This document shows positions 38,986 to 42,230 of a stretch of DNA of 64,000 nucleotides, piece by piece (the first letter of the stretch is position 1; each line of letters begins with the position of its first letter). Source of the stretch: an uncultured Bacteroidales bacterium (lineage in GTDB: Bacteria > Bacteroidota > Bacteroidia > Bacteroidales > P3); the NCBI GenBank assembly GCA_900314925.1, contig OMXC01000002.1, positions 1-64,000 of the forward strand, given 5' to 3'. The notes under the pieces were generated by a model, which saw only the letters and a program-made list of their open reading frames with translations, did no database searches and had not been told where the DNA came from. The position numbers were made by a program, and so were the translations under genes.

Positions 38986-39156
38986 TGTGACAGATGACAG
39001 TTGTGACAGTTTGTTTTTAAGGGGTATCCATTTCTCATTTTACCCCCTTTCTTATTTATATATATCTTATTATTAATTAATTATAAATATTATAAAGGGT
39101 GGATATCTGGAAATAGGTGGTGCCTTTTTTAATTGTCACAACTGTCATCTGTCACA
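38986..39156. repeat. Long-arm inverted repeat element 1
   Basis: Perfect 23-nt arms (38986-39008 and 39134-39156) made of tandem TGACAG units enclose 125 nt. The core contains AGGGGT, an AT-only stretch with ATTATTAATTAATTATA, ATAAAGGG and CCTTTTTTAATTG. The same core words in the same order recur in element 2. Confidence 0.85.
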
Positions 39157-39213
39157 GGGGTGTAATGGTTGCTCCCTACAAGGCTTTGGTCTTTAGCTTG
39201 TTAAGTTTATTGG

Positions 39214-39359
39214 CGTTCCAGTTCCAGTTGTTCCAATTGTTTTTTGAAGGGGTGACAATTCTCTTATTTCTTATATATATCATTAATTAATAATTAGTTA
39301 TATAGCATAAAGGGAGAACTGGTACTCCTTTTTTAATTGGAACAACTGGAACTGGAACG
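39214..39359. repeat. Long-arm inverted repeat element 2
   Basis: Perfect 25-nt arms (39214-39238 and 39335-39359) made of GTTCCA(G) units enclose 96 nt. The core shares TGTTTTTT.AAGGGGT, TATATATATC, ATTAATTAAT and ATAAAGGG with element 1, though the arms differ in sequence. Confidence 0.85.
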
Positions 39360-39384
39360 GACGTTGAGGTTGTCGAAATTCCCA

Positions 39385-39434
39385 GTAGGTCTACTAGCCG
39401 TTTACTAGCCGTCTAGGAGCCGTTAAGGACCTAC
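39385..39434. repeat. 11-nt tandem repeat inside a 7-bp inverted repeat
   Basis: GTAGGTC (39385-39391) and GACCTAC (39428-39434) enclose TACTAGCCGTT-TACTAGCCGTC-TAGGAGCCGTT, three 11-nt units. Confidence 0.7.
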
Positions 39435-39531
39435 AGAGTCAGTAAAAATGGGCAACAGCGGATTTTTGCCTTTGGTAATGGCTGTATGACAGCGGGTTAT
39501 CGGTCGGGATTGTGTGAGGCTGCTGGCGGGG

Positions 39532-39684
39532 CGTTACAGCGTTACAGTTCGAAATATGGTTACCCATAAAAGGCAAAAATGGATTAAAATTTATATAACT
39601 AATTATATATTATATAGTTATATATAATTATGTAGATAAATGAAGATTATGGATACCTTCAAAATGAACTGTAACGCTGTAACG
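39532..39684. repeat. Long-arm inverted repeat element 3
   Basis: Perfect 19-nt arms (39532-39550 and 39666-39684) made of CGTTACAG units enclose 115 nt, again with an AT-only centre (ATTATATATTATATAG). An extra half unit (TGTAACGC) follows the right arm. Confidence 0.85.
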
Positions 39685-39745
39685 GTGTAACGCTTGAGGT
39701 CCATTATCCTGTAGAGGAGACAAATTGTCAGATGATTACATTATT

Positions 39746-39777
39746 TTTGGCCATATCGGGAAAAATGTGTATCTTTG
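39746..39777 (+). promoter_or_regulatory. Promoter of the structured leader / methyltransferase cassette
   Basis: TTTG at 39746-39749, 20 nt, TATCTTTG at 39770-39777. Transcription should begin near 39784, about 300 nt before the first start codon. Confidence 0.75.
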
Positions 39778-39783
39778 CATTCC

Positions 39784-40020
39784 GAAAACAAGTCGCGAGA
39801 GTGGCGGCTTTAGTATAGAATAATAACAAAGCATTACTATTATTTCGCATTCAAGAAAAAAGTCCGCTAAACAGATTTCAAGAAATCGGAATAATACATT
39901 GACGGGATAGCCATCAAGAAATCCCAATGCTAAACGTAATTGTAATGTTCGCACTTATAGGTGTGAACTTTCTACGTTTAGCAGCGGTTTTTCTTAGCGG
40001 ACTTTCCGTGAATGCGAGTA
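39784..40020 (+). ncRNA. Candidate structured RNA or leader upstream of the methyltransferase
   Basis: By hand, nearly the whole segment folds. H1: AAGTCGC/GCGGCTT (39790-39810). H2: AATAATA/TATTATT (39819-39844). A long-range stem P1 pairs TCGCATTCA with TGAATGCGA (39845-39853 / 40009-40017) and AAAGTCCGCTAA with TTAGCGGACTTT (39859-39870 / 39994-40005). P1 encloses three hairpins. P2 is GATTT/AAATC (39874-39887). P3 is CATT-gac-GGGAT / ATCCC-AATG (39897-39929). P4 is TGCTAAACGTA/TACGTTTAGCA (39928-39938 / 39973-39983), topped by GTTCGCAC/GTGTGAAC. It matches no RNA family I know. It could be a free ncRNA or a cis-acting leader. Confidence 0.6.
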
Positions 40021-40056
40021 GATTAGCTCACGCCTTTCTTCTTTTTCCGAAGCCGA

Positions 40057-40087
40057 TTGGTAGCAATGCACAAAGAATAACTACCAA
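40057..40087 (+). promoter_or_regulatory. Hairpin abutting the methyltransferase start codon
   Basis: TTGGTAG (40057-40063) pairs with CTACCAA (40081-40087); the last A is the first base of the ATG. No Shine-Dalgarno sequence lies in the loop. The fold could limit ribosome entry. Confidence 0.5.
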
Positions 40088-41133
40088 TGGCAGGAAACCA
40101 AAGTCTCAATAGAGCATTGAAGGCCAAACAGGATGAGTTCTACACACAGATGGACGACATCAGCAACGAACTGAAGCACTACCGCGAACACTTTCACGGG
40201 AAAAAGGTTCTGTGCAACTGCGATGACCCTTACGAAAGCAATTTCTTCAAATACTTCGCGCTTAATTTCAATACACTTGGGTTAAAAAAATTAATCGCTA
40301 CTTGCTACTGCGGTTCTCCTGTGGTAGGTAGTGAAATGTTATTCGAAATAGACGGAGAAGGAAAGTTATTACGCAAGAAGGCTTATATGGTGGAGATTAC
40401 CGAAGTAGACGACTACAATGGTGACGGGGCAGTAAACCTTTCCGATGTTCAATATCTCATACAGAACGATAAGAATGTATTGACGGTGTTACATGGCGAC
40501 GACCGATATGGTGCCGGTGATTTCCGCTCTACGGAGTGCGTTGAGTTGTTAAATGAGGCAGATATTGTCTGTACAAACCCGCCATTCTCCCTCTTCCGCG
40601 AATATGTAGCACTTCTGATGAAGTATGAGAAAAAGTTCCTGATAATCGGAGGGCAGAACGCATTAAAGTATAAAGAGATATTCCCTCTTTTGATGCACAA
40701 TAGTATGTGGCTCGGATACAAGAGTGGAGACATGAGTTTTCAAGTTCCAGAATACTATGAGGCAAGGGAAACAAGATACTGGCAGGATGAAACTGGGCAG
40801 AAATGGCGTAGCCTTGGAAATATTTGTTGGTACACCAATTTAGACATTGCAAAACGTCACGAGCAGATGGATTTATGGAAACACTACGATTCTAACAACT
40901 ATCCTCATTATGATAATTTTGATGCAATCAATGTCGACAAAGTGATAGACATCCCTTGTGATTACTATGGCCTTATGGGTGTGCCCATCACATTCATGGA
41001 TAAATACAGCCCTGACCAATTTGAAATAGTCGGCGTTCTGAACCACGGCTGTGATTCGGCGTTTGACCTTGCTAAACCGACTCTAAATGGCAAAGACCTT
41101 TATTCACGCATATTAATCCGCAGAAAGAAATGA
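40087..41133 (+). CDS. EcoRI-family adenine-specific DNA methyltransferase
   Basis: 348 residues. The family start is seen in LKAKQDEFYTQMDDISNELK and VLCNCDDPYESNFFKYFALN. The catalytic NPPF is at residues 164-167 (IVCTNPPFSLFREYVALL). It would N6-methylate adenine in a short DNA site. Residues 109-120 (DYNGDGAVNLSD) form a perfect EF-hand-like calcium loop before the catalytic motif. No EcoRI-type endonuclease is next to it; instead its stop overlaps the start of a DUF262-HNH nuclease gene (ATGA). Base composition is AT-richer than the surroundings, which suggests transfer. Confidence 0.9.
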   Translation: MAGNQSLNRALKAKQDEFYTQMDDISNELKHYREHFHGKKVLCNCDDPYESNFFKYFALNFNTLGLKKLIATCYCGSPVVGSEMLFEIDGEGKLLRKKAYMVEITEVDDYNGDGAVNLSDVQYLIQNDKNVLTVLHGDDRYGAGDFRSTECVELLNEADIVCTNPPFSLFREYVALLMKYEKKFLIIGGQNALKYKEIFPLLMHNSMWLGYKSGDMSFQVPEYYEARETRYWQDETGQKWRSLGNICWYTNLDIAKRHEQMDLWKHYDSNNYPHYDNFDAINVDKVIDIPCDYYGLMGVPITFMDKYSPDQFEIVGVLNHGCDSAFDLAKPTLNGKDLYSRILIRRKK

Positions 41134-42230
41134 AGATAGAACTAACACAAGTGACCATCCGCGATTTGGTGGATGGCTATGCAGACAACAGCGCCAATGA
41201 AGAAGGCATCGTTGGCTATGGAGGAAGGCTGAATATCAGGCCTAAATACCAGCGCGAGTTCGTCTACGACGATAAGAAACGTAACGCCGTCATGGATACC
41301 GTCTGGAAAGGATTTCCTCTTAATGTGATGTATTGGGTACGAAACGATGATGGAAACTTTGAACTACTCGACGGGCAGCAACGTACCATCAGCATCTGTC
41401 AATACGTGTGGGGTGAATACATGATGCACTTAGATAATGACTTACGCGGATTCGAAAACCTAAGCAAGGAACAGAAAGATCGTATATTGGATTATGAGTT
41501 GCAGATATACATTTGCGAGGGTACCGCTGATGAGCAACTCGACTGGTTTCGCATTATCAACATCGCAGGCGAGAAACTCACCGACCAAGAACTGCGCAAC
41601 GCCATTTACAGCGGACCTTGGGTAACACAGGCAAAAAGACGTTTCAGTAAGACGAGGTGTGTTGCATGGCAGTTAGGATGCGACTATATGAGTGGCACAC
41701 CGATACGACAGGATTATCTTGAAACTGTACTGAGGTGGATGAGTGATAAAAAAATAGAGGAGTATATGGCCAAACACCAGCACGACGAAGACTGTGACGA
41801 ATTATGGCAGTATTACCAGAACGTTATTCATTGGGTGCAGACACATTTTACTGAAAAACGCAAGGAGATGAAGGGCGTACAGTGGGGAGATATGTACAAC
41901 AAGCACCGTGATGACCCATTCAAAGAGACCGACCTACGAGAACAAGTTAAGCGGCTGATGAAGGACAGCGATGTAAAGAACAAGGGTGGCATATATTGGT
42001 ATGTGATGGACGGCGATGAGCGACACCTTGACCTGCGGGCTTTTGATGACAACACCAAGCGAGAAGTCTATGAGCGTCAGCTGGGCATCTGCCCTATCTG
42101 TGGGCAGCACTTCGCCATAGAACAGATGGAAGCCGACCATATCACCCCTTGGTGTCAAGGAGGCCGAACGGTGGCTGACAACTGTCAGATGCTATGTCGC
42201 GACTGCAACAGGCATAAATCAGGGAAATAG
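41130..42230 (+). CDS. DUF262-HNH nuclease
   Basis: 366 residues. The N-terminal DUF262 domain has RPKYQREFVYD (37-47) and the nucleotide-binding/hydrolysis motif DGQQR (81-85), as in GmrS-type subunits. A helical middle follows. The C-terminal HNH domain has CPICG (Cys321, 324), DH (336-337), N351 and CRDCN (Cys356, 359), a zinc-stabilised beta-beta-alpha nuclease. DUF262 proteins often cut foreign or modified DNA using NTP. The 4-nt overlap with the methyltransferase indicates coupled translation, so the pair probably works as a restriction-modification or modification-sensing unit (inference). Confidence 0.9.
   Translation: MKIELTQVTIRDLVDGYADNSANEEGIVGYGGRLNIRPKYQREFVYDDKKRNAVMDTVWKGFPLNVMYWVRNDDGNFELLDGQQRTISICQYVWGEYMMHLDNDLRGFENLSKEQKDRILDYELQIYICEGTADEQLDWFRIINIAGEKLTDQELRNAIYSGPWVTQAKRRFSKTRCVAWQLGCDYMSGTPIRQDYLETVLRWMSDKKIEEYMAKHQHDEDCDELWQYYQNVIHWVQTHFTEKRKEMKGVQWGDMYNKHRDDPFKETDLREQVKRLMKDSDVKNKGGIYWYVMDGDERHLDLRAFDDNTKREVYERQLGICPICGQHFAIEQMEADHITPWCQGGRTVADNCQMLCRDCNRHKSGK

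Follow-up and report, generated by a model that had tools for sequence, protein, structure and literature searches.

A folded RNA upstream of a methylase–nuclease pair belongs to a conserved Bacteroidales RNA family and may act as an attenuating leader

Restriction–modification (R-M) systems must be held in check on entering a new cell. C proteins control Type II R-M systems, and the EcoRI system is under antisense RNA control; to our knowledge, the controllers of R-M systems are mostly proteins or antisense transcripts. Among RNAs, EAR and put RNA are processive-antitermination elements.

The locus described here lies in a 64,000-nucleotide stretch of DNA from an uncultured Bacteroidales bacterium, which as a whole we call the window. 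In it, a folded RNA precedes an EcoRI-type adenine methyltransferase gene and a restriction endonuclease gene that overlaps the methylase stop, and this RNA belongs to a conserved family without an Rfam match. Judging from sequence, we lean towards reading it as the leader of the methylase–nuclease operon, one member of a modular Bacteroidales family, with transcription attenuation by a swap between readthrough and terminator strands as its likely mode of action.

The folded element and its extent

Positions 39784-40020, which the initial annotation had described as densely folded, have a minimum free energy of -77.1 kcal/mol (RNAfold). This lies 7.2 standard deviations beyond 200 dinucleotide shuffles (mean -46.7 kcal/mol, sd 4.2; z = -7.2), none of which reached it (0/200). 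The two-part long-range stem reported there is present as helices P1 and P2, with several hairpins enclosed, and the large inner hairpin corresponds to P5 (GCTAAACGTA/TACGTTTAGC) with P6 as its cap. P6 has a competitor, the E2:E3 pairing, which covaries more and was missing from the initial annotation. An end at 40020 proved too short, as E3, the U-rich tract and the start hairpin are also part of the element (Table 1). The promoter placed upstream reads as one of Bacteroidota type, the Bacteroidota consensus being TTTG / TAnnTTTG. It had also been stated that no coding frame explains the fold; a 61-codon frame does cross the region, and we take it for chance.

A genome search found the full RNA to be single-copy in its own genome. 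Another 16 short matches there cover query bases 1-53 only, that is, the promoter and start, and one of these is the RNA against its own reverse strand. Elsewhere in the window, positions 38986-39690 hold three long inverted repeats in a row, each AT-rich at its centre; their arms are 76-100% complementary and are built of tandem 8-9 nt words such as GTTCCAGTTCCAGTTGTTCCAATT.

Table 1. Features of the element and of the two genes behind it, in window coordinates
Feature	Position	Strand	Description
Promoter of leader	39744..39778	+	TTTTTGG, 20 nt, TATCTTTGC; from sequence and box enrichment across copies
H1, 5' hairpin	39790..39811	+	Sequence variable; folds
H0/S1 strand, AGCATTACTATTATTTCG	39830..39847	+	Highly conserved; complements S1' and, in part, the strand after P1'
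P1, TTCGCATTCA with TGAATGCGAG	39844-39853 with 40009-40018	+	Long-range helix
P2, AAGTCCGCTAA with TTAGCGGACTT	39860-39870 with 39994-40004	+	Long-range helix
P3, local hairpin	39874..39887	+	Window subtype; 4/6 pairs changed on both sides in A4
S1', CGGAATAATA	39887..39896	+	10 bp complementarity to S1
Q strand	39897..39905	+	Complementary to Q' (40006-40014); candidate second pseudoknot
P5-P6 hairpin	39929..39982	+	P6 = E1 (39947-39954) with E2 (39959-39969)
E2, 3' arm of P6	39959..39969	+	Mutually exclusive partners E1 and E3
P2', Q' and P1' strands	39994..40018	+	
E3, AGCTCACGCCT	40025..40035	+	E1-like; complements E2 at 10/11 positions; ends at U-tract
U-rich tract	40035..40046	+	Predicted termination site, from sequence
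Start hairpin, GATTGGTAG...CTACCAATG	40055..40089	+	Ends at methylase start codon
EcoRI-type adenine methyltransferase	40087..41133	+	PF13651, 3.1e-140 (Pfam); PADLOC Type II MTase
GmrSD_N-HNH restriction endonuclease	41130..42230	+	Overlaps methylase stop; PADLOC Type II REase

Family members, covariation and partner genes

The RNAs fall into four subtypes, the window-like D followed by A, C and B. By eye, they have in common an S1-like strand (AGCATT-nn-CTATTATTTCGCG in A, C and D), the long-range stem, a GAAA-rich stretch 3' of P2, the P5-P6 hairpin and a U-tract ahead of the gene. A covariance model, R1, trained on 14 D-type sequences including that of the window, matched C- and A-type RNAs outside the training set with E values from 1.7e-12 to 3.5e-4, and D, C and A therefore form one family. 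At E values up to 1, R1 did not match B-type loci L020, L033, L034, L036 and L160 or clostridial/verrucomicrobial loci L049, L058 and L096; for L026 the E value was 0.13. Among genomes of the same family, a hand count of rows put the R1 matches at 107 copies, spread over 60 of 190 genomes, the window's own included, with up to 10 per genome, and 20 of 344 order-level genomes were positive, again including its own. In a class-level search the window's own genome was the one positive among 395, and this is weak evidence of absence since six candidates per genome were scored.

B-type RNAs were seen at L017, L020, L021, L022, L035, L042 and L104. In these the strand after P5 complements a strand beyond the terminator (TTACGGGCA/TGCCCGTAA, TAATGGTCT/AGACCATTA), which gives a further long-range pairing. 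Folded regions with S1-like complementary strands, by eye, lie upstream of the same methylase at L049, L058, L059, L081, L084, L096 and L100, whose records are labelled Clostridia, Pseudoflavonifractor, Lentisphaerae, Verrucomicrobia or uncultured bacterium. One element copy has a tmRNA gene nearby (L249 3844-4243, minus strand).

That the RNA falls outside the known families is borne out for Rfam 15: neither the window nor 29 related loci match an entry there over the RNA, and the highest score below threshold was 15.9 bits against a cut-off of 95. Literature searches found no description of this RNA, including in passages of PMC8040213 and PMC2864571. The RNA had no match in phage or plasmid records, and pattern scans of viral contigs were empty in three cases and elsewhere gave the truncated copies at L283 and L284. 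These two IMG/VR viral contigs carry a truncated 5' half of the RNA, from S1 to E1, on the reverse strand (at about 3715 in L283 and about 971 in L284), together with a GATTGATAG-like motif and, by eye, without the P1'/P2' strands. R1 matches the L284 record (E 5.6e-5) and leaves the L283 record unmatched. The viral copies are possibly decoys or remnants.

Base pairing was assessed in alignments A4, of D-type sequences, and A9, of 41 copies of which none was used in R1 and none precedes a recognised EcoRI-type methylase gene, so that A9 is the stronger covariation test. The proportion of pair cells that are paired is 92.9% in A4 and 94.4% in A9, values favoured by the helix columns having been found by scanning those same alignments (the A9 helices were already known from A4 and A5 before the A9 scan). 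In A4, both sides changed at 20 of 36 pairs, and four of five measures were unreached in 500 shuffles (0/500). A9 has 162 compensatory cells against 42.5 in shuffles; all five measures were unreached (0/500), and slid controls were at most 51% paired. P1 is 99.4% paired in A4 and 98.1% in A9, where 4 of its 7 pairs changed on both sides, and P2 shows such changes at 7 of 10 pairs in each alignment. Homologues with compensatory changes, on which the initial annotation had made its fold depend, were thus looked for and found, with both A4 and A9 covarying.

The rows of A4 and A7 were picked by eye among loci of the window subtype. A9 was drawn from 55 sequences, with L235, L247, L265, L266, L269, L272, L273 and L277 excluded (other layout or EcoRI type); it also leaves out L285 and L290-L294, which precede EcoRI-type methylases. 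Before A9, up to thirteen sequences were dropped by name, as near-duplicates or for poor U-tract calls.

Split by coordinates, the 107 copies comprise 51 before EcoRI-type methylases, one at a contig end and 55 others, which were retrieved. A sense downstream frame is present in 52 of these 55, and the other three run into contig edges. In 21 of the 52 this frame is a DNA methylase or restriction gene, with seven Pfam types above the cut-off. The partners are Eco57I-like (6), C5 (5), Type ISP (3) and D12 (2), with one each of HsdR, a C5+Eco57I fusion, an MmeI-like enzyme (under the Pfam cut-off, PADLOC MTase_II), an EcoRI-type methylase (L277, also in the methylase search) and a ResIII helicase. 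Behind the remaining copies stand four acyltransferases, two GDSL proteins, two proteins of one 770-aa family and 23 others, of which a single genus contributes 17. The 770-aa proteins are encoded at L272:741-3050 and L273:826-3135, and that of L272 has no Pfam or PADLOC match. Order-level partners include a Tsp45I endonuclease, an MmeI-type enzyme, an N6_N4 methylase that to our eye is Type III Mod-like, a D12 methylase and a ResIII helicase, as well as sulfatase-fold membrane proteins and an acyltransferase. The link to EcoRI-type methylase genes drawn at the outset is therefore not specific, with R-M genes of many types and non-defence genes following the RNA. The idea that it is an RNA part of a defence cassette is likewise not supported, since R-M enzymes whose folds are unrelated, and genes outside defence, have this RNA in front of them too.

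The EcoRI-type methylase is present in 80 of 190 same-family genomes and at 160 further loci (a few of these being repeats), and the named relatives bearing it are, among the top matches listed, mostly labelled Bacteroidales, Prevotella or Paludibacteraceae. An R-like frame occurs somewhere in 161 of 190 loci (hand count). The regions upstream of the methylase form two fold groups by eye, with z < -4 at 67 of 104 genome loci and at 4 of 77 viral loci. From motif and layout, the RNA was assigned to 69 of 181 methylase loci, a number that includes 14 of other layouts added by eye. A small HTH frame lies just upstream of the methylase in 10 of the 112 RNA-less loci (three genome and seven IMG/VR loci, selected by eye among 40 small frames, ahead of the Pfam scan), and none was seen at the 69 RNA-bearing loci, where small frames were judged by eye only. 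The frames, at L030, L051, L071, L120, L129, L149, L173 and three more loci, are mostly HTH_26/HTH_3 and may serve in the manner of controller proteins.

Leader position and competing pairings

Where enough sequence was present, 44 of 47 copies have a sense ORF of at least 150 aa beginning 170-480 nt past the RNA start. These copies came from the 52 of 55 retrieved that have a sense frame of at least 50 aa; the three without a frame (L233, L256 and L271) run out within 800 nt and would have fallen outside the count. In the mirror control, a divergent frame of at least 100 aa occurs in 10 of 51, which is a lower bound. The distance from RNA start to start codon is similar among copies, about 220-460 nt. 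Upstream of the RNA, the box TAnnTTTGC is found in 67 of 108 copies against 2.8 expected (the exact box is missing in 41/108); between the U-tract and the ATG it shows no excess, with 3/108 against 1.9 expected. The motif GATTGATAG-N-TGC is conserved, mostly 8-16 nt past the U-tract, and belongs to a hairpin ahead of the start codon (GATTGATAG...TGC...CTATCAATC) whose longest stem averages 10.7 bp against 6.5 bp in shuffled sequence (n = 85). To the eye, its arms change in a compensatory way and its loop varies, as a transcribed hairpin would, and this start hairpin appears to be transcribed. A promoter at the GATTGATAG-TGC motif was considered and rejected: the TAG-TGC and loop spacings vary, and promoter boxes are not in excess there.

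The sense orientation, the promoter boxes confined to the upstream side and the start hairpin together favour one transcript that begins at the upstream promoter, crosses the RNA and continues into the gene. Because the gene types vary, the position is sense and the promoter boxes stand upstream only, we read the element as a cis leader. Of the options first offered, that of a leader gains from this orientation, the similar spacing, the upstream-only boxes and the start-codon hairpin, and that of a trans-acting RNA has less support.

Within this leader, E1:E2 and E2:E3 are mutually exclusive because both use E2. In the helix scans E2:E3 ranked first in A4 and second in A9, behind P2, and it covaries in both; E1:E2, of whose seven pairs two have changed on both sides, is 91% paired. 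In 105 of 109 loci, the strand ahead of the U-tract finds its best duplex partner in the 3' arm of P6, with about 9-18 pairs. A locus's own E3 outperforms those of other loci in pairing, ranking in the best 10% in 74 of 109 (median 5.6%), in a test from which 12 other-layout loci were excluded by name and duplicates and loci lacking a U-tract by rule. In the window the own E3 is in the best 20% only, and at L258 it pairs worse than most foreign E3 strands. The predicted E2:E3 stem adjoins the U-tract and has a loop of about 55 nt; on the plus strand, no short-loop terminator was found in 39700-40150.

For S1, too, there are two candidate partners: S1', which lies within the P2 domain, and the strand that follows P1'. 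The first pairing, S1:S1', reaches 93% in A5 and in A9 but is mostly invariant; in A9, one of its four pairs shows a double change. The second, between S1 and the 3' strand, is 89% paired, without covariation. For Q:Q', 94.6% of cells are paired in A4, and just one of its seven pairs has changed on both sides. Outlying loci carry other complementary sequences in place of S1:S1'. A cross-locus test gave a perfect 7-11 bp helix between an S1 segment and the loop in all 21 chosen representatives, in at least three of which (L038, L094 and L096) it is not the expected one; as S1 is common to many loci, the own loop took first rank in only 4 of 21. For the S1 pseudoknot, a thermodynamic duplex test proved too permissive (14/73 at p <= 0.05) and was set aside.

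With E2:E3 forced in the window, S1:S1' forms by itself. The nested fold energy is then -70.8 against -92.6 kcal/mol, a cost of about 22 kcal/mol, and the terminator state would therefore need a pseudoknotted P2, kinetic folding or a ligand.

Readings of the element and comparison with known systems

Since E2 can pair either with E1 or with a strand that ends at the U-tract, an attenuation switch is implied. As in attenuators, mutually exclusive helices are backed by covariation, with E2 common to both, and the element lies in sense in the 5' leader, by position and orientation. We picture a single transcript that would run from the promoter into the gene. In the readthrough state, P1, P2, P5 and P6 (E1:E2) would be formed and the polymerase would pass; in the stop state, S1:S1' and E2:E3 would form, and the stem abutting the U-tract would halt it. 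The start hairpin may add a translational layer, and a small molecule, a protein or an infection signal are candidate triggers. Against attenuation, nested folding favours the readthrough state by the roughly 22 kcal/mol given above, and the tracking of E1 by E3 could also mean a shared trans target.

We think it unlikely that the element is instead an independent small RNA acting in trans, with its own promoter and terminator and with a separate promoter for the gene near the GATTGATAG-TGC motif. Such an RNA would account for the U-tract ahead of the gene, the conservation of GATTGATAG-N-TGC past it, the up to 10 copies per genome and the occurrence of the 5' half alone in two viral contigs. 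However, the copies are in sense orientation, the TAnnTTTGC box is without excess between the U-tract and the ATG, and the TAG-to-TGC spacing and palindrome loop vary by eye, unlike those of a promoter box or dimer operator.

Processive antitermination, in which the folded RNA would modify RNA polymerase to pass terminators further down, is improbable in our view. A single complex conserved RNA ahead of unrelated operons, the highly conserved S1 sequence and the candidate pseudoknots would suit it, but competing strands beside the element's own U-tract point to local switching. Far less probable still is that the RNA serves the restriction enzyme as a subunit or guide, as the omega RNA does for IscB: there is an HNH nuclease in the operon with the RNA directly upstream, yet the same RNA also stands before C5, Eco57I, D12, HsdR, ISP and surface genes, the methylase–nuclease pair is also found without it, and a guide-like variable 5' end was not seen by eye. 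An omega RNA would have a constant partner nuclease, and the partners here are unrelated proteins. A retron msr-msd was likewise rejected, as the two window genes behind the RNA are a methylase and a nuclease and not a reverse transcriptase. That the sequence is a DNA element such as a MITE, or another mobile palindrome, and folds only incidentally is scarcely credible, for although some genomes hold several copies, the compensatory changes in separate long-range helices contradict it, as do the one orientation to genes, the divergence of copies and the single full copy in the window's own genome. The near-identical, multicopy and orientation-free copies of a MITE or transposon repeat were not found.

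A broader version of the attenuating leader, which we hold to be rather doubtful, is a general anti-phage riboregulator of restriction Types I, II, ISP and likely III and of surface genes, with L283 and L284 as phage decoys. If this were true, a common infection or cell-state signal would be sensed, and restriction and surface-modifying genes would be switched together. A single structured RNA leader across R-M types and surface genes would be a new layer of bacterial immunity regulation and makes a testable statement on the joint control of defence and phage-receptor genes. The copies at hand (107, in 60 of 190 genomes) also offer a large orphan RNA class.

Several described systems resemble this element in part. 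It resembles C-protein control of Type II R-M systems in that a small control unit immediately precedes the methylase, a place where some loci of this methylase family have an HTH frame instead; it differs in being RNA, not protein, and in that one RNA family serves many R-M types. The EcoRI antisense RNA is also a case of an R-M system regulated at the RNA level, but it is an antisense transcript inside the genes, whereas the RNA here is sense and upstream. EAR (epsC) RNA and JUMPstart-type elements are likewise structured 5' elements ahead of operons of varied content; this RNA has no Rfam match at gathering score. Membership among the riboswitches cannot be claimed, because a ligand would be needed. 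Attenuators and riboswitch platforms share with it the leader position and mutually exclusive pairings, among them a stem, here a predicted one, that runs up to a U-tract; different here are the two candidate pseudoknots, the R-M systems of many types and the lack of an Rfam 15 match. An attenuating leader is of a known kind, and what is new, as far as we could see, is a single RNA leader family common to many R-M types.
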